A DNA stretch of 64,000 nucleotides from Luteolibacter flavescens (GTDB taxonomy: Bacteria > Verrucomicrobiota > Verrucomicrobiia > Verrucomicrobiales > Akkermansiaceae). Where the stretch lies: the NCBI RefSeq assembly GCF_025950085.1, contig NZ_JAPDDS010000001.1, positions 248,001 to 312,000 of the forward strand, given 5' to 3'. Of this stretch, positions 16,448 to 28,174 are shown in pieces; position 1 is the first letter of the stretch, and each line of letters starts with the position of its first letter. The notes beneath the pieces are model-generated. The model saw only the letters and a program-made list of their open reading frames with translations. It had not been told where the DNA came from and searched no databases. A program made the translations under genes and the position numbers.

Positions 16448-19156
16448 CTACTTGCGATCCTTTGCCCGCTGGTAGCGGGAGCGGCGTTCGGAGCTGTCTT
16501 CCGGCGGGGCGGCAGCGGTGATGGCGGGCTTTTCTTCCTCTTTCGCGAAAACGGGTGCGGGCTTGGCTTCCTTCACCTTCTTCGGCTTGGCGACCTTTTC
16601 CCGCGGCGCGAAGTTCGGCATGGCAGGCAGCGGCATTTTCCATCCGGTGCGGGTGAGGAGAGCCTCGGTCACCAGCAAGAGCAGCATGGAGAGGGCGATC
16701 CACATGCGCAGGGAGACGTCCTGGCGATTCGGCGGACGCAGCCACGCATCCTCGAGATTGAGCAATTCACGTCCGCCGGTCTGTGCGGCCACCGTGCGAA
16801 GCTCGGCCAAGCGCTCCGGCTCCAGCGACCACTCGACAGAAGAACCGACGGTGACCGGACCGAAAGGGAGCGCATGCTCACCGACCTGAATCGCGCCGCG
16901 GACGATCGCGCCTTCATCGAGGTCCTTCGTCACGGAGAAGTGTCCCGGTGCGATGCGCTTCCACGGGACATCATAAGGAGCCGAGCCGGGTCCGCTTTCC
17001 AGCAGGCGCAGCTTTGGCGGCATGGCGGAGAGCTTCTGTGCCCACTGCTCGGGATCGTAGAGGAGATCCAGCGTCAGGCGCGTGCCGTCCAGGCGGTGCT
17101 TCAGGCCGATGCCCGGCGGCAGGTCCATGCCCATCAGCCAGCGGGTCATCGTCTGGACGAAGTCGCCATAGCCCTGCCAGTCCCGGATGCGCTGTGAAAA
17201 CTCGCCGCCGAGCGGGAATGACACGGCAGCGCTGCGGCCCAGCCCGCGGCGCGCGTGCGCGACGAGCGGTGCCACATATTCGTCCCGGCTGACCAACGAC
17301 GTGGTGGCGTCCTCGCGGGCGTAGGAAAGATTGTAGCCATCCACTTCCGGCAGCCACTCGAGCAACTTCGGCGAGATTTCCGCCCACCGCCCGGTCGGTT
17401 GTGCGGCCACCGGATCCTCGATGAATGCGGAGCGGGCGATGGTCACGGTCTCCTGCGCGAAGATCTTCGGGATGTCCATCGGCTGGTCGGCGAAGAAGAT
17501 CCGGCCATCGCCGAGCTTGGCGATTTCTTCCAGCAGCTTCGCATCCGAGTCCGCCTTCGTGCCCATGCCGATGACGGAGACGGTGCAGCCTTCCTTCTTC
17601 ATTTCGGCCAGCAGCCGCTTGTAATCGCCGGGCTCTTCCGTGTCGTTCGCGTCGGAAAAGAGGATCACGTGGCGGGTGCCCACGGTGGTGTCCTTCAGCT
17701 CGTCCCATGCGGCTTTCAGGCCCTCATAGACGTAGATGCCACCGCCCATCGACTTCACGCTGCGTGCGGTTTGTTGCAGCTTGGCCTGGTTGTTCTTCAC
17801 CTCCGTGAGCGGGATGACGATCTCCGGTGCGCTGTCCACGGCGATGACGCTGACCTGATCCATGGGACCGAGCAGGCCGATGGCGTCGGCTGCACCGTTG
17901 TTGGCGAGGTCCATCTTCACCATGCCGCCGGCGACACCGACGGACATCGAGCCGGAGCGGTCGAGCACGATCGCGAGCGCCACGGCCAACTTGCGGTGCT
18001 CCGTTTTCAACTCCATCGACACGGGCAGGAGAGCATCGAGGGATGATTGGAAATAGCCACCAGAGCCAAAGGACTGCTTGCCGCCAGCCATCAGGAACCC
18101 GCCCGCCTGCTCGCGCACGAAGAAGTCGAGTGCGTCCATGAAATCCCCCGGCACCTCGAAGGCGGGGATATTGTTGAATATCACCGCACGCGCCCCGGTC
18201 AGGCGGCCGGGACGCAAGTCGGAGGGATCCGTCACGACATCGACGGTGAAGTTGAGCGACGAGAGGACCTTTGCCACCGGGTCATCCGTGTATTTCGTTG
18301 CGAGCAGCACACGCGGACCGCCGGCAATCTCGATCCAGCGCGAGATCTTGTTGTTCCCGGGATGCGCGTCCTTGAAGGGGGAGTCGCTGCCAACCACCAC
18401 CTCGGCCTCGTAGTGATAGGCCCCGGCGCGCGGGATGCGGTCCGTGAATTCGGCGCGTCCCACGCCATTGACGAGCTTCACCTTGGTCTCCGTCAGCGTC
18501 TGGTCGCCGCGGCGGATGATCAGGTTGACGTCCGTGTCGGACGAGCCGCGGACGGTGGCCGCGATCAGGAAGGGCTCACCCGCCTGCACTCGCTCCGGGA
18601 TGTCCAGACGCGACATGCGGAAGTCATCGAGCGTCTCCTCGCGGATCAGGCGGAAATCGACGGGGATGCCCTGCGTCTGGAGCTGCGCCGCGGCTTCGTG
18701 CAGCGGTTCGGTGGCGAAGCCGTCGGTGAAAAGCAGCACGCGCGAGGGACGGTTCTTTTCCGTCAGCGCGGTGATGTGTGACAGCGCCAGTCCGGTGCGG
18801 GTCAGCTTGCGGGAGCCAGTGAAGGTCACGTCGTCCTTGCTGGCGTCCGCGATCTCGGCGCCGTAATTGAAGTAGTGGACCTCGTCGCGGTGGCTGGGCT
18901 TTGCGTTTTCGATTAGCTGCTTCCACTCGGTGAGATTCTTGTCCACCAGGTTCTCGGTGGAGTCCGAGCGGTCTAGCAGAACGAAGAGATCCAGCGCATC
19001 CTCCTGCACGTTCATCTTCGGATCGGAGAGCCCGAAGGCCGCGAGCAGGACGAGCACGAGCCGCAGCGGCGACCACAGGCGCAGGGACTTCCAGAACCAC
19101 CCGATGAACAGGAAGGCCGGAATCAAAAGGAACCACTCTGGAGAACCGAAGGTCAT
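16448..19156 (-). CDS. Large double-VWA membrane protein, last gene of the MoxR-ABC cluster
   Basis: A 902-residue protein with two membrane helices at the start (residues 7-45), a VWA-like domain with LLDRSDSTEN (degenerate MIDAS) and TDGFATE, an immunoglobulin-like stretch, a glutamine-amidotransferase-like segment (RVLLATKYTDDP to MAGGKQSFGSGGYF), and a second VWA with a full MIDAS motif LDRSGSMS near residue 400. A C-terminal transmembrane helix (LRMWIALSMLLLLVTEALL) is followed by a Lys/Ala/Pro-rich cytoplasmic tail. This is the organisation of the large VWA proteins next to MoxR clusters in Verrucomicrobiota and Planctomycetota. It follows the second small lipoprotein gene by 40 bp. Probably a periplasmic sensor or binding platform whose VWA domains are acted on by MoxR; that is inference. 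Confidence 0.85.
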   Translation of the reverse strand: MTFGSPEWFLLIPAFLFIGWFWKSLRLWSPLRLVLVLLAAFGLSDPKMNVQEDALDLFVLLDRSDSTENLVDKNLTEWKQLIENAKPSHRDEVHYFNYGAEIADASKDDVTFTGSRKLTRTGLALSHITALTEKNRPSRVLLFTDGFATEPLHEAAAQLQTQGIPVDFRLIREETLDDFRMSRLDIPERVQAGEPFLIAATVRGSSDTDVNLIIRRGDQTLTETKVKLVNGVGRAEFTDRIPRAGAYHYEAEVVVGSDSPFKDAHPGNNKISRWIEIAGGPRVLLATKYTDDPVAKVLSSLNFTVDVVTDPSDLRPGRLTGARAVIFNNIPAFEVPGDFMDALDFFVREQAGGFLMAGGKQSFGSGGYFQSSLDALLPVSMELKTEHRKLAVALAIVLDRSGSMSVGVAGGMVKMDLANNGAADAIGLLGPMDQVSVIAVDSAPEIVIPLTEVKNNQAKLQQTARSVKSMGGGIYVYEGLKAAWDELKDTTVGTRHVILFSDANDTEEPGDYKRLLAEMKKEGCTVSVIGMGTKADSDAKLLEEIAKLGDGRIFFADQPMDIPKIFAQETVTIARSAFIEDPVAAQPTGRWAEISPKLLEWLPEVDGYNLSYAREDATTSLVSRDEYVAPLVAHARRGLGRSAAVSFPLGGEFSQRIRDWQGYGDFVQTMTRWLMGMDLPPGIGLKHRLDGTRLTLDLLYDPEQWAQKLSAMPPKLRLLESGPGSAPYDVPWKRIAPGHFSVTKDLDEGAIVRGAIQVGEHALPFGPVTVGSSVEWSLEPERLAELRTVAAQTGGRELLNLEDAWLRPPNRQDVSLRMWIALSMLLLLVTEALLTRTGWKMPLPAMPNFAPREKVAKPKKVKEAKPAPVFAKEEEKPAITAAAPPEDSSERRSRYQRAKDRK

Positions 19157-19196
19157 GACGCGTTGAATGCCAGGGAAAAGGAAGGTCGGATCCGAA

Positions 19197-19565
19197 TCAA
19201 GATTCCGGGCCGGATGATTCTTCGATCAGTCGGTGTGTGCCGTTGTAATAGAACGTTTTCCATCGTCCTGCCCATTGTTCTTCGATGGCTAACTGGATGA
19301 GGACTGTGCCATCCTTCGTGCGATCAATGAAGCCTTCGCATTTGATCGGCCTGTAGCCGAGGACCTTGATGTTTTCGCGTGAGCCCAGTTTGATTTTTGA
19401 AGCTGGAGTGACCGTGCCGGGATCTGTCGGGGAAATCCAGTGGTCCCATGAAGTGAACGCATTGCGAGAGCTGATCGTGATGCTCTGGTCAGGGTGCAAA
19501 TAGGTCTTGGTCGAGCTGCACGAAACGCACAGCAGGGTAGCCAGGGCGCAGGCGTATTTCGTCAT
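19197..19565 (-). CDS. Small lipoprotein B, paralogue of its neighbour
   Basis: A 122-residue protein from the ATG at 19565, which overlaps the stop of the preceding paralogue (ATGA). The signal region MTKYACALATLLCVSC ends at a Cys followed by SSTK, lipobox-like. The mature part shares an order of motifs with the upstream gene: a TY/VYxH start, SITIS against SLTIS, a central PIKCEGFIDRTKDG against PLKCDGFVDATRKK, and a C-terminal GTHRLIEE against GRYKVIDE. The domain has no family name I recognise. It is the penultimate gene of the MoxR-ABC-VWA cluster, so an envelope partner of the VWA proteins is the natural guess. Confidence 0.75.
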   Translation of the reverse strand: MTKYACALATLLCVSCSSTKTYLHPDQSITISSRNAFTSWDHWISPTDPGTVTPASKIKLGSRENIKVLGYRPIKCEGFIDRTKDGTVLIQLAIEEQWAGRWKTFYYNGTHRLIEESSGPES

Positions 19566-19948
19566 GGGATCAGCCAATGATAGAAGGGCTTGGGCGCGTT
19601 TTCATCGATCACCTTGTAGCGGCCGTTGACCCAGGGTTGCGAGAGGGTGCCGCCTTGTTTCTCGACCAGGCGGATCTCCACCTTCTTGCGCGTGGCGTCC
19701 ACGAAGCCGTCGCATTTCAGCGGCACGGCGGGCGCGGACTTGTGGGTGAACTTGCGGAAGACCGTGAGATCGCCCGCGGTGGTGATGCGTCCGGCACCTG
19801 CGCCATTGACCCAATAGGTGGACGGGGCGGCCTTCAGCCCGCGCTGGGAAATCGTCAGCGAGCCGTTCGTGTGGCGGTAGACGGTGGTCGTGGTGCAGGA
19901 GGCGGCGAGCAGGGGCAGGACCGTCAGCGGGAGGCAGCGGAGTTTCAT
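19562..19948 (-). CDS. Small lipoprotein A, paralogue of its neighbour
   Basis: A 128-residue protein with a signal peptide ending LLAASC (lipidation at about Cys18), then TTTTVYRHTNGSLTIS. The start at 19948 was chosen because the signal peptide begins there; the in-frame extension upstream lies inside the VWA gene. It shares the SLTIS, KCDGFVD and GRYKVIDE motifs with the next gene, so the two are tandem duplicates that have drifted. It starts 5 bp after the BatA-like gene and overlaps the next start, so BatA, A and B are tightly coupled. No known function. Confidence 0.78.
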   Translation of the reverse strand: MKLRCLPLTVLPLLAASCTTTTVYRHTNGSLTISQRGLKAAPSTYWVNGAGAGRITTAGDLTVFRKFTHKSAPAVPLKCDGFVDATRKKVEIRLVEKQGGTLSQPWVNGRYKVIDENAPKPFYHWLIP

Positions 19949-19953
19949 GTCGG

Positions 19954-21777
19954 TCAGGCAGGTTGGGGTTCGGCGCGCTTCCTGGCGGCTTCGCGCTCCC
20001 GGGTGAAATGCCACGAAACGAGCAGCGCGGCGAGCAGCAAGAGGAACCACGCGCGCCACCAGTGGTCTTCATCGGTGTGGCGCTCCACGGCGACCGCACT
20101 GCCCTGATCAATCGTGTCTGCTGGCTTGCATTCGCTGAAGTCCGCCTCGCGCGTGTCCGCGAAATGAACGCTGGCCGTGAGCAGGGCGGTCTCGCCCTGA
20201 TGGACGCTGAGGAAGCCGGCCTCCAGCGGTGCCTCCAGCCTGACCTGTGCGGACGCGGGGAGAGTGTCGGTCTTCACCTCCTTGCCCTCCAGGTTCCGGG
20301 TTTCCACGGTCAGCCCGGCCACCTCGGCACCGGTATTCGCCGCGAGGGTCAGGGGCTGGCCGCTTTCCAGCAGCTCGGTGGTCGGCGCGATCTTCGCCTC
20401 CCGCAATTCTTCCGCGAAGCGATGCAGCATCACGATGAAGGCGGGCTGCGTGGAGGCATTCGAAAGCCGCAGGTCGAAATTGAAGCAGAGCTGACGTGAT
20501 GCGGGCGTGTCCGCGGTGGCATCGGTCTCGCGCAGGAAGATCAGCGGGCGCTCGCCCTGCCACAGCAGCACGTCGTCGCTCTCGCGGCGCTGGAGTTGGA
20601 TGGTCTCGCGGACGAGCAGGGACTGCCAGTTGAGCGCGTCAATGAGCGGGTGCTTTTCCGCCACGATGCCGCCCTTGAGATAGGCCCCGCCTTGGGTCTC
20701 GTCCTTCACGAAGACGATGGCATGGCCACCCGGAAGCACCGGGTCGAGCGGATCGTAGGACAGGATCGTCAGGTCCGCAGTCGCTGTGTCATTGACGGAC
20801 TCGGTGGCTTCCAGCGAGCGCAGGAGCTTCTTCGACAGATCCTCGTAGGCACCGCCGGTGGCGGCGAAGATCGCGAGCTTCTTCGGCTGCGGGACCACGA
20901 TCGGTAGCACGTCATCCAACGTGAAGGTGTCGGGCGAAAGCAGCAGCTTCATCCGCTCCGCCTGTGCGGGGAAGGCAGCCTGCAGGGTCACGATGGCATT
21001 CGGCTCCAGGTCGATGCTGCGTGGTTCGGTGCGGGTGCCGTCCGGCAATTCGACCTGCCAGGTGCGCGTGGCACGGGACGCAGAGTAGTTCCGCACGAGT
21101 GCTTGGAAGACCTTCGCGCCTTCCTTCTCCGCGATGCCGACACCGGTGAAGCCGACATTGTCGATGGGTTCGCCGAGCGAAAGGAGACGCGCGTCGAAGG
21201 GCGGCTGCTCCACCGGGGTATCGGTCACGTAAACGACGATGCCCTCGCGTGCGACGAGAGAGCGTGCGAGCCGCAGCGCTTGCGAGGGATCGGTCAGGCC
21301 GGAGCGGGGCTGCCATGCATCGAGCGCTTTCGCGAAGTCCTCCGGATTGTCCCCGGAGTAGAGCTTCGGCTTGCCGGGCGTGCTCTCCAGCACGGTGAGT
21401 TCCAGAGCGGTCGCGGGGCCTTGGAGATCGGGCAGGGAAGCGACGAGCTTTTCCTTCAGCTTGTCCCTGGTGACTGCCATGGATGCCGACGAGTCGAGGA
21501 CGATCGCCACGCGCTGCGTGCTCCGTGCCTTCTGGTAACGGGGCTCCGCGAGCAGCCAGGTGAGCAGCAGCACGCCGAGGAGCTGCATCCACAGCGGCAC
21601 GGAATTCATCAGCCGGTCGAAGCGGCGACCGCTTGCGGATTCACGCTGGGTCTTCTCTAACAGGAAGAGCGTGGAGATCGGGATGATGACCGCCTGGCGC
21701 TGGAGGAAATGGATCGCCAGCACCGCGGGAATCCCGAGGAGCGCCCAGAGGCCGGCAGGGTTGGAGAGAGTGAGCAA
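19954..21777 (-). CDS. BatA-like VWA membrane protein of the MoxR-ABC cluster
   Basis: A 607-residue protein with the BatA/aerotolerance N-terminus: a helix at 10-28, the conserved FLQRQAVIIPISTLFLLEKT, a second helix near 62-78, then a VWA domain with MIDAS DSSAS at residues 95-99 and TDTPVEQP. The periplasmic remainder is long and beta-rich, ending in a helix WFLLLLAALLVSWHFT and a basic tail. It sits 30 bp after the DUF58 gene and 5 bp before the first lipoprotein. In known systems such proteins form membrane complexes that interact with MoxR ATPases; the outcome here is unknown. Confidence 0.87.
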   Translation of the reverse strand: MLTLSNPAGLWALLGIPAVLAIHFLQRQAVIIPISTLFLLEKTQRESASGRRFDRLMNSVPLWMQLLGVLLLTWLLAEPRYQKARSTQRVAIVLDSSASMAVTRDKLKEKLVASLPDLQGPATALELTVLESTPGKPKLYSGDNPEDFAKALDAWQPRSGLTDPSQALRLARSLVAREGIVVYVTDTPVEQPPFDARLLSLGEPIDNVGFTGVGIAEKEGAKVFQALVRNYSASRATRTWQVELPDGTRTEPRSIDLEPNAIVTLQAAFPAQAERMKLLLSPDTFTLDDVLPIVVPQPKKLAIFAATGGAYEDLSKKLLRSLEATESVNDTATADLTILSYDPLDPVLPGGHAIVFVKDETQGGAYLKGGIVAEKHPLIDALNWQSLLVRETIQLQRRESDDVLLWQGERPLIFLRETDATADTPASRQLCFNFDLRLSNASTQPAFIVMLHRFAEELREAKIAPTTELLESGQPLTLAANTGAEVAGLTVETRNLEGKEVKTDTLPASAQVRLEAPLEAGFLSVHQGETALLTASVHFADTREADFSECKPADTIDQGSAVAVERHTDEDHWWRAWFLLLLAALLVSWHFTREREAARKRAEPQPA

Positions 21778-21807: not shown

Positions 21808-22689
21808 TCACATTGCCGTTTCCAGCGCACCGCTCGGCAGTGCCTCGGCGAAGAGGGCGGTCTGGAGGTCCGGTTCGCAGGCAATGCGCGCCATGCGGCA
21901 TTGGTGGCGGCGGCAGGCGGTTTTCCACATGGTGAAGTGGTTCGTGTAGCTCTCCTTGTAACGTTTCAGCACGGAGGGCTCGATGCGGTGCGGGTGGCGT
22001 GATTTCCGCTCGGCATCGACGAACTCGTAGTTGCCCGCCCAATCCGGCGCGGCCTCGCTCTGCAGGAAGGGAACGAGGAAGATCGGGCTGCCTTGGCGGG
22101 CGGCCAGCATTCGCACCGCGTGCTCGGGATCGCCGGGGAAAAGCAGGTCGGACACCAGCACGCGGATGGCATTGCCATGGAAAGGGATGCGAGAGAGGTC
22201 TGGCGGGAGGGAGGCATCGGAGGACTTCATTGCCCGGGCCTCGTCCAGCCAGCGATGCGTGGCGATGCTCTCCGGTGCGACCGGTCGCATGGCATCTCCA
22301 CGAACGAGAAAAACCGCGGTACTCGCACCGGAGCGGCGGGCGGACTCGACGACGAAGCAGAATAGCTCCGCGACGCGCTCCGCCTTCTGAGGGTCGAAGA
22401 ACATCGACTCCGAGGCATCCAGCAGGACATCCACCACGGGGCGCACTTCCTCGCGGTAGAGCTTCATCGTGTATTGGCCGGTCCGCGCGTAGGCCTGCCA
22501 GTTGATGTGGCGCGGATCATCGCCCGGCACGTAGGTGCGGTGGTCTTGGAAATCGAGCGACGAGCCCACGCCCGCGCCCTGGAATTCCCCGGCCTGGCCC
22601 TTCCAGACGCGCGAACGCAACGGCAGCCGCAGTCGTCCTGCCGCGGCGAGCGCGCGGGCATGACAGCGGGTGAGTTCCTCGGTCGTCAT
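21808..22689 (-). CDS. DUF58 domain protein of the MoxR-ABC cluster
   Basis: A 293-residue DUF58 protein. Signature stretches are GQAGEFQGAGVGSSLDFQDHR, YVPGDDPRHINWQAYARTGQ, then a VWA-like strand LLDASESMFFD with a DxSxS site. The start ATG at 22689 overlaps the stop of the ABC permease gene (ATGA-type), so the two are translationally coupled. It differs from the DUF58 protein at 813-1706 in sequence, so the two clusters are not a recent duplication. Its presumed partner is the MoxR ATPase at 27167-28174. Confidence 0.9.
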   Translation of the reverse strand: MTTEELTRCHARALAAAGRLRLPLRSRVWKGQAGEFQGAGVGSSLDFQDHRTYVPGDDPRHINWQAYARTGQYTMKLYREEVRPVVDVLLDASESMFFDPQKAERVAELFCFVVESARRSGASTAVFLVRGDAMRPVAPESIATHRWLDEARAMKSSDASLPPDLSRIPFHGNAIRVLVSDLLFPGDPEHAVRMLAARQGSPIFLVPFLQSEAAPDWAGNYEFVDAERKSRHPHRIEPSVLKRYKESYTNHFTMWKTACRRHQCRMARIACEPDLQTALFAEALPSGALETAM

Positions 22690-24221
22690 GGCTTGGTGGT
22701 GGCGGCGTAGTTCTCGGCCTCTTGCTCGACCTCACGGATGGTGGAGAAATTCCGCAGCGCGAGCATCAGCAGCAGCACGAAATACACTGAGGAGGTGACG
22801 ATGCCGGTGAGCAGCACGGGCTGGAAGTCCGGTGATCCGCTGCCTGAGAAGCCAGCGCTGCCCATGGAATTGTAATGAATACTCTGGAGGTGATCGATCA
22901 GGTTCATCTGCACCGGCGGCACCCATGAGAAAAGCCAGACATACTCGTCGTTCTTCGTCTCCGACATGATCATGCCGAGGGCGATGGCGATGACGCAGAG
23001 GATGACCCCGACGAGGATATAAACGCCGAGTGGATTTTTCGCCTGGCGAACGAATGCCCGCATGATCAAGGCCGGGAGCAGCAGGGTGCCGAGGCAGGTC
23101 ATCAGAATGATGGTCCCGACGATGTCAAAACCACCCATGTGCCCGCCGAAGCCACCCGGTCTGGAGAAGAACACACCGAGCACACCCGCGATGAAGAGGC
23201 CTGTGAAAAGCACGCCGGACGGCCAACCCGGGTAGAGGAAGCGTCCCGCGAGCTTTCCAAGTCCGCCGAACTTCAGGAAAGGACGGCAGATCGGCGGTAG
23301 CAATTGAAGCGGCTCGGTCAGGGCAATCACGATCGCGGGCACGGCCACCAGCATGAGCACCACTGCCAGCGGTTCCCGGGAGAAGTCGCCCGCCCAGGCG
23401 AACAGGACGAGGAGAGGCAACATGCCAAGGGCAATGAGCCTGCGCGAGGTGCTGTGATTCTCCGCCATGGGCGCGATCATCGAGGCGCCCAGCGCCAGGG
23501 CCATCCATCCCAGATAGCCACCCACCAGCAGGAACGTCAGCACGCCCCAGCCGGAGCCATCGCGCTGCAAGGAGCAGATCTCGATCACATCATCGAGGTC
23601 ATTGCCGAAGGTGATGCCCATGATGCCAGCACCGACGTAGATCGCCGCGGCCAGCGGCAGCAGTCCGCGGACAAGCACGGAGCCGATGGCGGAGAGTCCG
23701 ACCGTTACGGCGGTGAAAATCGCAGAGCCCGCGAAGATGAGTGCCAGCAGCAGGAGCTCGGCGAAGAGATCCATGCGCCCGAAGAAGTAGCGGAGAATCA
23801 GGTAGGGGATGATCGCCGTGAGCAGCAGCGCCGTCTGGCTGACGATGGCCACCCACTTGCCAAGCACGATGCGCCATGAGCCGAGGCGGGTGAGCACCAT
23901 CAGGTCGATGGTGTTTCCCTTGATCTCATTGTGCAGCGAGCCGACCCCTCGCAGCGGTTGGGCGACGAGCGCGGCCAGCGAGAAGAAAAAGAAGATCACC
24001 TTGCTGACGCTCATGCCTGCGTCGCCATCGGAGCTCGCGCCAACGGCCGCGAGCATCACCACGGCCAGCAGGCCCTGGAGGGCGAGGAAGAGGATGACGA
24101 AGGTCTTTGCCCGGAGTCCCTGGCGAAGCTCCTTCACCAGCATGGGCGAGAGCTTGTCGCTGAATTCATCGAGCTTGCCCGACACGGGAGGTGGCGTGAC
24201 GGCGGGGGCGGCAGCACTCAT
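22686..24221 (-). CDS. ABC transporter permease of the MoxR-ABC cluster
   Basis: A 511-residue integral membrane protein with about ten to twelve predicted helices. The cytoplasmic start (LSPMLVKELRQGLRAKTFVILFLALQG) is the pattern of ABC-2 type permeases that precede the first helix, and a GNTIDLMVLTRLGSWRIVLGKW coupling stretch follows. Its start overlaps the stop of the ABC ATPase (TGATG), making a two-component exporter-like pair. ABC-2 permeases of this kind export or reorganise envelope components; in gliding bacteria similar ones take part in motility. The substrate is unknown. Embedding in a MoxR/DUF58/VWA cluster suggests a shared envelope task. Confidence 0.85.
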   Translation of the reverse strand: MSAAAPAVTPPPVSGKLDEFSDKLSPMLVKELRQGLRAKTFVILFLALQGLLAVVMLAAVGASSDGDAGMSVSKVIFFFFSLAALVAQPLRGVGSLHNEIKGNTIDLMVLTRLGSWRIVLGKWVAIVSQTALLLTAIIPYLILRYFFGRMDLFAELLLLALIFAGSAIFTAVTVGLSAIGSVLVRGLLPLAAAIYVGAGIMGITFGNDLDDVIEICSLQRDGSGWGVLTFLLVGGYLGWMALALGASMIAPMAENHSTSRRLIALGMLPLLVLFAWAGDFSREPLAVVLMLVAVPAIVIALTEPLQLLPPICRPFLKFGGLGKLAGRFLYPGWPSGVLFTGLFIAGVLGVFFSRPGGFGGHMGGFDIVGTIILMTCLGTLLLPALIMRAFVRQAKNPLGVYILVGVILCVIAIALGMIMSETKNDEYVWLFSWVPPVQMNLIDHLQSIHYNSMGSAGFSGSGSPDFQPVLLTGIVTSSVYFVLLLMLALRNFSTIREVEQEAENYAATTKP

Positions 24222-25246
24222 CAGTTGTTCGATGGTTCGGGAGGCGTGAAGGCGGGGATCTCGGACTTCGGCGCGGACGGCAGCGCTCCCTCGCCGCGGT
24301 CGATGCGGCCGAGCATGTCGATGAAGGCGTCCTCCAGATTGCGCTGTTCCTTGTGGAATTCCGTCACCTTCAGGCCGTCCTTGATCATGCGGGCGAGGAT
24401 CTCTGCCGCGCGCTCGGCCTCGCCGGACTCGATGCGGATTCGTCCGCCGGCCTTGCGGCTCTCAAGGAACTCCACATGGGGATTCACCACGCACCAGTCG
24501 GAGACCGCCTGCGGGTCGCCGATGACCTGCACGTCGTAGAGCATGCCGCCCTTCGAGTCCGTGCCGTGTTTCAGCGACTCGGAGTCGCCGTGGTGAACGA
24601 TGCGGCCGCCATTCACGAAGAGCAGCGAGTCGCACATCTCGCCCAGCTCCGAGAGGATGTGGGAGGAGATGAAGATGGTCTTGCCCTCCTGTGCGAGCAC
24701 CCGGATGAGGTGCTTCAATTCGACGCGGGCCTTGGGGTCGAGACCCGCGGCAGGCTCGTCCATGATGAGCACCTGAGGATCGTGCAGCAGTGCGCGACCG
24801 AGGCAGAGGCGCTGGGTCATGCCCTTCGAGAGCTTGTTAGAGAAGCGGTCGGCGAGCGGCACCAGGTCCGTGAATTCCATCACCTCTTGCACCCGCGTCT
24901 TGCGCTCCTTGTCCTTGTAGCCGAAGGCGCGTGCGTAGAAGTCGAGGTACTCGACCACGGTCATGTGCTCGTAGTTGCCGAAATGATCCGGCATCCAGCC
25001 GATCAACTTCCGGACTTCGTCCGGATGGTGGACCACATTGATCCCGCAGATCTCGGCGGTCCCCATAGTCGGGTAGTCGAGAGAAGCGAGGATGCGCATG
25101 GTTGTCGTCTTGCCGGCGCCATTCGCCCCGACGAATCCGCAGACGGAGCCATGGGGAATTTCGAAGGAAATGCCATTCACCGCCTTCAGTTGCCCGAAGT
25201 AACGGTAGAGGTTGTTGACGCTGATCGCAGGGGCGGTGTCGGACAT
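24221..25246 (-). CDS. ABC transporter ATP-binding protein of the MoxR-ABC cluster
   Basis: A 341-residue ABC ATPase: Walker A GANGAGKTT, Q-loop region GWMPDHFGNYEHMTV, signature LSKGMTQRL, Walker B VLIMDEPAAGLDP and H-loop SSHILSEL. A 100-residue C-terminal extension after residue 240 is typical of ABC-2 ATPases. The start at 25246 (MSDTAPAISVNNLYRYFG) was chosen over an upstream ATG because the preceding 56 residues lie inside the neighbouring gene and are unconserved. It overlaps the permease start by one base and powers that permease. Confidence 0.93.
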   Translation of the reverse strand: MSDTAPAISVNNLYRYFGQLKAVNGISFEIPHGSVCGFVGANGAGKTTTMRILASLDYPTMGTAEICGINVVHHPDEVRKLIGWMPDHFGNYEHMTVVEYLDFYARAFGYKDKERKTRVQEVMEFTDLVPLADRFSNKLSKGMTQRLCLGRALLHDPQVLIMDEPAAGLDPKARVELKHLIRVLAQEGKTIFISSHILSELGEMCDSLLFVNGGRIVHHGDSESLKHGTDSKGGMLYDVQVIGDPQAVSDWCVVNPHVEFLESRKAGGRIRIESGEAERAAEILARMIKDGLKVTEFHKEQRNLEDAFIDMLGRIDRGEGALPSAPKSEIPAFTPPEPSNN

Positions 25247-25280
25247 GGAAGGAAGTGCCAAGTAAGAAGTGCCAGCAGCC

Positions 25281-27089
25281 TCAGGGTTTGAAAACCGGAC
25301 CGGTGATGAACGTGCGCGTTCTGGTCCAATCGATGCCCTTGAGCGTTTCGATGGCCGGGGCGCTTTCGGTGACGGCGATGAAATGACCGGGGCGGTTGTG
25401 CAGGGATGCGACATCCTTTTGGATCGTCAGCACGCGGCGGCTGCGCTCGGCGAGCTTGAGGGACGCTTCGTTTGCGAAGGCCAATACTTCTTCCGGAGAT
25501 GCGGTTGTGCAGGTGAATCCCTTGCCCGGGACGACCTTCTCGGCCTTCCACCATCCGTTCGAGTTGTCCAAGTAGTAGAGCTTCTCGATTTCGAAATCGA
25601 AGGTGGACAGGAAGGATGGAGCGCCGCTCTCGCTGCGGGCCTCGATGCGTCCACGTGTGGGGACGATCGCTTTCACGAAGTGTCCTTGCTCGGAGCGGCT
25701 CTGGAACCAGTCGCCCTCCACCTCCAGCTTGCCGTCGGTGAATTTCTCCTCGTAGCGCATGCCGCCGCCTTCATTCACGTTGGTCAGGCGCGACCACTGG
25801 CCGGAGGCGAGAGGGACGCTGGTGATGACGGCGGGTTCGTTCAGGGTGAAGCCACCGCCGAGCAGCACGCCGGTACGGCTGACTTGCTCCTGCAGGATGT
25901 AGGCGGAATTTTCCCCGTCATCCGGGCGCACCTCCATCAGCACCGTGCGCATGCCGCGGCCACCGAAGCCGTCGATGAGGATGATCAGGGCGATGAGCAG
26001 CACGCTGGTGCCGAGCGCGATGAGAGGCGTGGTGATGAAGAGCCGGTGGCGGCGTCCGGACTTCGCGAAGACGAAGAGGTTCACCGGGCCGACGAGCACG
26101 CCGAAGCCGACAAGGATCACGATGAAAAGTCCGTAATTGTAGCGCTGCTCGCCGAACTCGCTCTTGGTGATCCAGTGTCCGCTGAAGTCGCTCCGGATGG
26201 ACGCATTTTGCGAGGTCATCCGGGCCTTGTCGTGAAAAAGCTCGATCGTCTCTGCTGGATCCAGCGTCACCTTCCCGCTTGAGACGGTGGCAGGCACGAG
26301 CGACACCCGGCCAAAGCTACGATCAGCACTCCGCAAGCCCTTGCCGCCATCCGGTGCAACTCCAAGCGTCGCCAGATCCGAGGTGGCAGACAGCGTGTAG
26401 ATCAGGAGTTCTCCGCCAAGGCGATTCCATCGCAGGATCGCCGTTCGCGCACCCGGTGTGGCATTGCCCCAATCGGTGTCGGTCATGGCGATGCCGTCAT
26501 ATCCAGAATAGGCACGCCAATCTTCCGGCAGGGAGCGGGCATCGAATTTCCCGGCGAAGGTCTCGGAGCCACCATAGTGCCTGCCGCCTCGGCTGGTCAT
26601 CTGGCTGTCGAGAGCGGAGGCATTCGGCGTATAGAGCGGCTCGCTCAGGAGGATCGCCGGCTGGTCGTCGCGATAGCCTGTCCGCAGGCTGCCGGACGCT
26701 GCGCCGAAGGAGCCGGACATGCGCACGCTCACATTCATGTTCCCGCCGTAGCGGTAGTTCAGCAGCGTGGTGCACGGCACCAGGATGTCATGAACGCTGG
26801 TGCGCTTCTCGGGGATCGTCAGATTGAAGGACGAGGTGAGTTCACTCCCTTGCCCGCTGTAGCTGGCGTCGGACGATTCCGTGGAGATCGTGATGCTGCC
26901 TTGTTGCTCGGACGTGTTGTTCACGGTCAGGCGCACGGGCAGGAATCCGCCGGGTGCCGGGCGATTGAACAACGCCACCGCCTCGACCCGCGTCTTCGTC
27001 TTCGGATCGGGTATGTGATTGAAGAGCACCTCCTGTGCTCCCAGCGGAGCGACGAGGGAGGCGAGTAGGAGAAGAAGGCGGAAGCGCAT
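25281..27089 (-). CDS. Secreted/membrane protein of the MoxR-ABC cluster, unknown family
   Basis: A 602-residue protein with a signal peptide (MRFRLLLLLASLVAPLGAQ), a large beta-rich extracytoplasmic part, two central transmembrane helices (YGLFIVILVGFGVLVGPVNLFVF and TPLIALGTSVLLIALIILI, about 345-400), then another beta-rich part. GPVNLFVF is a motif I associate with a conserved family of verrucomicrobial membrane proteins beside ABC exporters, but I cannot name it. It lies between moxR (77 bp upstream) and the ABC ATPase (34 bp downstream). It may be a substrate-recruiting or periplasmic subunit of the ABC-2 system; that is inference from position. Confidence 0.75.
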   Translation of the reverse strand: MRFRLLLLLASLVAPLGAQEVLFNHIPDPKTKTRVEAVALFNRPAPGGFLPVRLTVNNTSEQQGSITISTESSDASYSGQGSELTSSFNLTIPEKRTSVHDILVPCTTLLNYRYGGNMNVSVRMSGSFGAASGSLRTGYRDDQPAILLSEPLYTPNASALDSQMTSRGGRHYGGSETFAGKFDARSLPEDWRAYSGYDGIAMTDTDWGNATPGARTAILRWNRLGGELLIYTLSATSDLATLGVAPDGGKGLRSADRSFGRVSLVPATVSSGKVTLDPAETIELFHDKARMTSQNASIRSDFSGHWITKSEFGEQRYNYGLFIVILVGFGVLVGPVNLFVFAKSGRRHRLFITTPLIALGTSVLLIALIILIDGFGGRGMRTVLMEVRPDDGENSAYILQEQVSRTGVLLGGGFTLNEPAVITSVPLASGQWSRLTNVNEGGGMRYEEKFTDGKLEVEGDWFQSRSEQGHFVKAIVPTRGRIEARSESGAPSFLSTFDFEIEKLYYLDNSNGWWKAEKVVPGKGFTCTTASPEEVLAFANEASLKLAERSRRVLTIQKDVASLHNRPGHFIAVTESAPAIETLKGIDWTRTRTFITGPVFKP

Positions 27090-27166: not shown

Positions 27167-28174
27167 TCACGCGGTCTTGAGCGTCTTCGGCGTGGCACCG
27201 CCTTGGAAGGGGATTTCCTCGATCAGCGCGCGGACGATGTCGTTGTTCGTCAGGCCTTCCACGCGGGCATTGTACTCCAGCACGATGCGGTGGCGGAGGA
27301 CGGCGGGAGCGACAAAGCGGACATCCTCGAAGGAAGCGTGAGGCCGCTCGTTCATCAGCGCGCGGGCCTTCGCCGCGGATGCCAGAGAGAGCGCCGCACG
27401 CGGGCTGGCACCGTAGCGGATGCCTCGCGCGGCAGAGCTCTGTCCCGGATGCGTGCCATCCACGAGCCGGGCGATGTAGTTTGCCACCACGTCCGGCAGG
27501 TAAATGCGGCGGACAAGGTTTAGCACCTCATCCAGCGTTGAGGCATCCATGATCGCCTCGACCACCGGCTCGGTGCCGAGTTCGCGCTGCGTCACGATCC
27601 GCTCCAGCGTGCTGACGTTGTTCCGGGTGACCTCGAGCTTGAAAAGGAAGCGGTCGAGCTGAGCCTCCGGCAGCGGGTAGGTGCCTTCCAGCTCGATCGG
27701 GTTCTGCGTGGCGAGGACGAAGAAAGGGCGGGGGAGATCGTGCGTCTCACCGAGCACGGTCACGCGGCGCTCCTGCATCGCCTCGAGCAGAGCGGACTGC
27801 GTCTTCGGCGACGCGCGGTTGATTTCGTCCGCGAGCACGATGTTCGTGAAGAGCGGTCCCGGCTGGAAGACGAAGGCACGGCGTCCGTCCGTCTCCTGCA
27901 GCACCGGGTTGCCCGTGATGTCGCCCGGCAGCAGGTCCGGCGTGAACTGCACGCGCTTCGTGCCGAGGCGCAGGGTCTTCGAAAGGCCCTTCACCAGCTC
28001 CGTCTTTCCGAGACCCGGCAGGCCTTCCAGCAGGATGTGGCCTCGCGCCAGCACGCCGGTGAGCACCAGATCGATGAGTTCCTCCTGACCGTAGAGCACC
28101 TGGTTCAGCGCCGCAGAGAGCGAGCGCACGTGCTTTCCGGCATTGGTCACTTCGGTTTCGGAGGCGTATTCCAT
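27167..28174 (-). CDS. MoxR-family AAA+ ATPase, first gene of the nine-gene cluster
   Basis: A 335-residue AAA_3 protein: Walker A LLEGLPGLGKTELVK, Walker B IVLADEINRASPKTQSALLEAM, sensor 1 LATQNPIELEGTYPLPEAQLDRF, and the lid motif YGASPRAALSLASAAKARAL. It begins the nine-gene minus-strand cluster down to 16448. Compared with the MoxR at 1840-2823 it has the canonical GxxGxGKT Walker A (the other has GLAKT). It probably acts on the DUF58 and VWA proteins encoded downstream. There is a 211-bp gap upstream with no clear promoter. Confidence 0.95.
   Translation of the reverse strand: MEYASETEVTNAGKHVRSLSAALNQVLYGQEELIDLVLTGVLARGHILLEGLPGLGKTELVKGLSKTLRLGTKRVQFTPDLLPGDITGNPVLQETDGRRAFVFQPGPLFTNIVLADEINRASPKTQSALLEAMQERRVTVLGETHDLPRPFFVLATQNPIELEGTYPLPEAQLDRFLFKLEVTRNNVSTLERIVTQRELGTEPVVEAIMDASTLDEVLNLVRRIYLPDVVANYIARLVDGTHPGQSSAARGIRYGASPRAALSLASAAKARALMNERPHASFEDVRFVAPAVLRHRIVLEYNARVEGLTNNDIVRALIEEIPFQGGATPKTLKTA

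Follow-up and report, generated by a model that had tools for sequence, protein, structure and literature searches.

Operons of the Bat or MoxR-DUF58-VWA kind combine, in a single run of genes, a MoxR ATPase, a DUF58 protein and two VWA membrane proteins, one of them BatA-like. MoxR ATPases with VWA partners are described as chaperones, and in pairs such as NorQ/NorD the target is believed to be bound through one of its acidic residues at the metal site (MIDAS) of the VWA protein (PMC9976466). As far as the sources consulted go, the published evidence for an involvement of Bat-type clusters in oxidative or other stress is mixed (PMC3557215, PMC11834572); since deletion of batABD in Leptospira biflexa is reported to leave the tolerance to oxidative stress unchanged (PMC3557215), the role of this model family is unsettled. 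Here we describe two small predicted lipoproteins, LP1 and LP2, that are encoded within a cluster of this kind in Luteolibacter flavescens, on a stretch of 64,000 nucleotides (assembly GCF_025950085.1, contig NZ_JAPDDS010000001.1, positions 248,001 to 312,000) that is called the window below and is numbered from its first letter.

The cluster that surrounds LP1 and LP2 represents a variant of the Bat/MoxR type. It has the four components listed above, but adds an ABC transporter pair, a 602-residue membrane protein and a lipoprotein. With the MoxR/VWA chaperone pairs it shares the combination of an ATPase and a VWA protein, but the bodies of its VWA proteins appear to be periplasmic. In the interpretation that we prefer, with a probability of roughly 0.6, LP1 is an accessory of the cluster that was gained once and docks by its C-terminal tail, while LP2 is a homologue that was placed beside it later and laterally.

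Two homologous predicted lipoproteins of an apparently genus-restricted family

LP1 (19562-19948, minus strand; 128 residues) and LP2 (19197-19565, minus strand; 122 residues) have the four bases ATGA at 19562-19565 in common, and because of this overlap LP2 is probably translated together with LP1. Three motifs follow each other in identical order in both proteins: S-x-T-I-S (SLTIS in LP1, SITIS in LP2), KCxGF(I/V)D (KCDGFVD and KCEGFID) and GxxxxIxE (GRYKVIDE and GTHRLIEE). Judged by their sequences the two are homologous, since BLASTP aligns them at E 3e-15 (30 of 109 positions identical, or 28%), far above chance, and since LP2 (E 2e-11) is the only match of LP1 besides itself in a six-frame search of its own genome; no third copy was detected there at E values up to 10. 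At both N-termini a hydrophobic stretch ends in SC, by eye a lipobox. That of LP2 carries a Cys at -3, which we take to be a departure from the usual pattern. The residue at +2, Thr in LP1 and Ser in LP2, would presumably favour the outer membrane under the E. coli rule, although the host belongs to another phylum. The initial annotation had pointed out the motifs, the overlap and the location between the BatA-like and the two-VWA genes, and had regarded the proteins as paralogous and lipoprotein-like; all of this agrees with the present analysis.

Eight residues (C18, T21, T32, W46, C79, G81, D84 and P119) are invariant in all 13 family members, LP2 included; the core otherwise changes fast. 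A profile of these 13 rows matches LP1 at 1.5e-58 and LP2 at 6.5e-41, both being themselves rows of the profile. Structure models were built from five of the 13 members. The LP2 model (predicted local distance difference test score, pLDDT, 78; predicted template modelling score, pTM, 0.69) has strands at residues 18-23, 29-34, 39-45, 52-54, 59-62, 74-81, 87-98 and 101-115, and the LP1 model, which is poor (pTM 0.56), has a similar strand order. The predicted core would suit a small beta-barrel. Foldseek returned no match below E 0.1 for either model, mainly nanobodies and lectins at template modelling (TM) scores of 0.2-0.3, and the best Z scores of VIA-align over both models, 4.1 and 4.5, are not convincing. 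The best-scoring structural matches of the LP2 model, at Z about 4, are small meander barrels of the avidin, lipocalin and CRABP types: some 90 of its residues align with streptavidin (VIA-align Z 4.1, root-mean-square deviation 4.5), and siderocalin follows at Z 3.1. The LP1 model matches a streptavidin monomer at Z 3.6. With Z scores far below 8, however, this amounts at most to a common strand arrangement and proves no kinship. A search of the PDB by sequence gave no match below E 0.28. A lectin-like fold for LP1 was considered and dropped, as the rows concerned cover only about 40-50 of the 128 residues of a poor model. The initial annotation had held that unrelated folds would speak against its view of the pair; with a similar strand order the folds are not clearly unrelated, a judgement in which LP1 enters with a poor model.

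The sample of the genus comprised 18 genomes (G000 and so on), the window's own included. LP1 as a query has matches in 11 of 57 genomes, all 11 from the genus, and LP2 finds the same 11 of the 18. In each of these a lipoprotein lies between the BatA-like and the two-VWA genes; it is single, and always of the LP1 type, in ten, and two are present only in the window's genome (in G006 and G011, the contigs or stretches used for mapping this slot begin inside the cluster). Single-copy versions in related clusters, which the initial annotation had proposed to look for, therefore exist in ten other genomes of the genus. The two-VWA gene itself occurs in all 18, and in seven of them the BatA-like gene directly precedes it, without a lipoprotein at the junction. 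Five of these seven contain the whole cluster; the stretch analysed from G001 covers only the BatA-like and two-VWA genes, and G005 contributes a short contig on which DUF58, BatA and an incomplete two-VWA gene lie. The absence of a lipoprotein from homologous clusters, which would have spoken against the view of the initial annotation, is thus found at seven of the 18 junctions and not at the other 11.

In a tree of the two-VWA protein (17 rows, the fragment of G005 being left out), the 11 genomes with a lipoprotein form one clade with 100/100 support, and the others lie outside under midpoint rooting. A single gain on the stem of this clade would be the simplest account, the alternative being an early gain followed by several losses. 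One of the 11 genomes, G010, has a second family member (G010b, locus L082, at C1:4337751-4338119), the only tail-less relative other than LP2; it is flanked by a gene with DUF1592/1588/1587/1585/1595 domains and a DUF1552 gene, in an operon unrelated to the VWA cluster.

The family was not found outside the genus when the profile was run against 195 genomes of the taxonomic family and 386 of the order, two draws that overlap and that both include the genus. The former gave 12 genomes at E <=0.01, 11 of them from the genus and one at 0.0095; the latter gave 20 at E <=0.1, ten from the genus and ten weak, the best of these (0.0028) being confined to the signal-peptide end. No member was found among phages, plasmids and viral contigs, and a wider scan of contigs yielded three loci, all of the LP1 type and apparently those of G008, G006 and G011. 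Pfam has no family for LP1 or LP2 (a scan of all 13 members gave one chance match, E 0.15), NCBIfam gave nothing above its cut-offs for the two (best E 0.012, a lipoprotein signal model), and no mention of the family was met in the literature searched. The lipoprotein family thus appears to be unnamed in Pfam and NCBIfam, as the initial annotation had supposed, and restricted to the genus within the genomes searched. Genus-limited accessory genes are common.

The LP1 tail and the probable insertion of LP2

LP1 ends in PKPFYHWLIP, encoded at 19565-19594 on the minus strand, and this tail or a near form of it (two have PR, one has YR and one a final L) closes all 11 LP1-type lipoproteins of the slot, as seen from a codon table and from conservation. 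It is lacking in LP2, which ends in GPES, and in G010b, which ends in PKPEKQ. Among the 11 proteins, invariant positions make up seven of the ten in the tail and 15 of the 101 in the mature core (Fisher p 4e-4); positions common to at least ten of the 11 proteins make up nine of the ten and 23 of the 101 (Fisher p 4e-5). As the sequences are related, these p values only describe the contrast along the protein. The tail codons differ at their third positions, synonymously, and the tail is retained in genomes in which it is free of any overlap with the following gene (G008, G006, G011, G004 and G015). On both counts, therefore, what is constrained is the protein itself rather than the start of an overlapping gene.

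The pair of LP1 and LP2 occurs in only one of the 18 genomes, that of the window. The empty site can be read in G007 and G009, where the four bases ATGA belong both to LP1 and to the two-VWA gene (...ATTCCATGACTTTCGG and ...ATCCCATGACCTTCGG). In the window, LP1 (...ATCCCATGACGAAATAC) runs into LP2, and about 409 bases further on ...GTCATGACCTTCGG opens the two-VWA gene. The presumed insert of about 409 bases with LP2 (19157-19565, minus strand) lies between two copies of CATGAC and has the lowest G+C content of the window; the presence of CATGAC at both ends is mostly due to the ATGA overlap and says little about how an insertion might have come about. LP2 has a G+C content of 53.4%, and of 65.0% at third codon positions (GC3), versus 62-67% and 80-86% in the ten other genes measured. 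It is the most G+C-poor region of the 64 kb, only 22 of 6364 segments of 369 bases being as low, 18 of which overlap LP2. The GC3 of G010b is 61.7%, and its locus has 60.2% G+C overall. A remnant of the tail was sought after the LP2 stop in three frames, with nothing convincing.

By an identity matrix, LP2 is 29% identical to LP1, 34% to G010b and 32-36% to several of the single-copy relatives (28-36% over all of these, with 27% to G004). An approximately unbiased (AU) test rejects LP1 and LP2 as sisters (p 0.0034) as well as a position of LP2 within the group of G000, G007 and G009 (p 0.0055), and the best tree pairs LP2 with G010b at weak support (58/66). These data suggest that LP2 is likely not a recent tandem copy of LP1. 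The initial annotation had seen the two genes as duplicates that stay together for long times, possibly as a heteromer or as two binding faces. This view is not upheld: the pair is confined to one species of 18, the two genes differ in G+C content, LP2 has no tail, and a sister relationship is rejected by the AU test. With both copies not kept together across species, an old heteromeric pair is likewise unsupported.

The host cluster and small genes at operon junctions

On the minus strand, the cluster begins with a MoxR AAA+ ATPase (27167-28174; Pfam AAA_3, E 2.8e-61), followed by the 602-residue membrane protein, which has three hydrophobic segments and no family match (25281-27089), a GldA/DrrA-like ABC transporter ATPase recognized by Pfam and NCBIfam (24221-25414, the true start probably being internal), an ABC permease-like membrane protein with many hydrophobic segments, no Pfam match and a weak NCBIfam match to GldF at E 0.028 (22686-24221), a DUF58 protein (21808-22689; PF01882, E 1.5e-17), the BatA-like VWA protein (19954-21777; 607 residues, with a TTG start as listed), LP1, LP2 and the two-VWA membrane protein (16448-19156; 902 residues, with two stretches of Pfam VWA). 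The BatA-like protein matches PF07584, the family of the BatA N-terminal region, above its cut-off (E 5.8e-8) and VWA_2 slightly below its cut-off (5.1e-5). No Rfam match was found between 10000 and 30000 of the window. In both VWA proteins a large body follows hydrophobic segments or lies between them (recognized by eye in the case of the C-terminal segment of BatA and of the first segment of the two-VWA protein), and BatA has a short N-terminal loop with basic residues, partly recognized by eye. It is because of the loop charges that these bodies appear to be periplasmic, where lipoproteins would be. At residue 450 of the BatA-like protein, all 11 genomes with a lipoprotein encode Met and six of the seven others encode Cys. 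Four of the 18 genomes also encode a second protein that is distantly related to the two-VWA protein (29-30% identity): L059 (G000, C20:42838-44874), L060 (G007), and in G009 and G008.

Orthologues of the DUF1592-type gene beside G010b were located at 14 loci, 13 of which reach the junction with the DUF1552 gene, and only in G010 does a lipoprotein of the LP1/LP2 family lie there. The small genes at this junction differ by species: genes for 126-138 residues (L083, L085, L088 and L092), one for 143 residues (L089) and the lipoprotein (L082). Four of the small genes begin at an ATGA overlap, and seven of the 13 readable loci have no small gene. In two genomes, the VWA cluster itself contains small genes between DUF58 and BatA (L034 5954-7267 and L038 6938-7600): G006 has a gene for a ParE-like toxin together with a DUF2281-like partner gene and another gene that is weakly HicB-like, and G003 has, at this junction too, a comparable gene with weak HicB likeness.

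Proposed role and alternative explanations

In the interpretation that we prefer, LP1 would be a periplasm-facing accessory lipoprotein of the VWA cluster in one clade of this genus of Verrucomicrobia. In the periplasm, the tail of LP1 would probably provide docking to either BatA or the two-VWA protein, and the invariant Asp84 of KCxGFxD may perhaps serve as an acidic ligand of the VWA metal site. An ATPase-driven assembly of VWA proteins could thereby be tied to the outer envelope, or report on it. LP2 would be the later arrival, brought into this single species on a short insert where the LP1 stop overlaps the VWA start, and would not be an old heteromer partner. Several observations weigh against this interpretation. 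The fixed differences between genomes with and without a lipoprotein are not clustered in BatA (10 of 303 conserved columns) or in the two-VWA protein (14 of 522) and outline no docking face, and the LP1 model is poor (pLDDT 65). LP2 keeps all eight invariant residues and may well work on the same partner; moreover, LP2 and G010b are long branches that meet, as the program warned, and the AU test shares that weakness. In a separate comparison by eye, the identities of BatA and the two-VWA protein with and without a lipoprotein show no special step. A disulphide between an invariant lipoprotein Cys and BatA is not favoured, as Cys 550 of BatA is present in 18 of 18 genomes, with or without a lipoprotein.

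LP2 might instead be a fast-diverging tandem duplicate of LP1 that arose in the window's lineage and lost the tail. The genes are adjacent, pairs of this kind often arise by tandem duplication, and the long LP2 branch can mislead the tree test; however, the outcome of that test, the sharp difference in G+C content and the slightly greater closeness of LP2 to several single-copy lipoproteins than to LP1 make this origin unlikely. The position of LP2 outside the LP1 clade and the second copy in G010 would fit yet another history, in which both copies are ancestral, formed a heteromer, and LP2 was lost from the other ten species. We consider this very improbable: it needs repeated clean losses, while the ATGA overlaps of G007 and G009 carry no trace of LP2, the G010 copy sits in another operon, and the G+C content of LP2 does not suit a long residence.

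In this genus, operon junctions seem to acquire small genes and to exchange them for others, and both lipoproteins could be passengers at such coupled junctions, with no link to the VWA proteins. The unrelated small genes that G006 and G003 have between DUF58 and BatA (ParE-like and weakly HicB-like) are in line with this, as are the three kinds of small gene between the DUF1592-type and DUF1552 genes, and for LP2 alone such a status is hard to exclude. For the two together it is improbable, since LP1 has retained its slot throughout its clade (11 of 11 genomes) and since a strong constraint acts on its tail at the protein level. The settings in which the family occurs, the VWA cluster twice and the DUF1592/DUF1552 operon once, allow a broader and quite doubtful idea: the small, genus-restricted barrel lipoproteins would form a plug-in module for junctions coupled by stop and start in unrelated operons, of which one branch gained a fixed docking peptide at its C-terminus and became a built-in outer-envelope subunit of the MoxR/VWA system.

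With LP1 as a proposed accessory of the cluster and LP2 as a probable later neighbour, the locus touches on two wider matters. The case of LP2 is a caution that neighbouring paralogues need not be tandem duplicates. Bat/MoxR/VWA clusters, furthermore, are widespread while their task in the envelope is unsettled, and the clade with LP1, beside relatives without it, offers a natural comparison, and the ten-residue tail of LP1 would be an easy handle for finding its partner.
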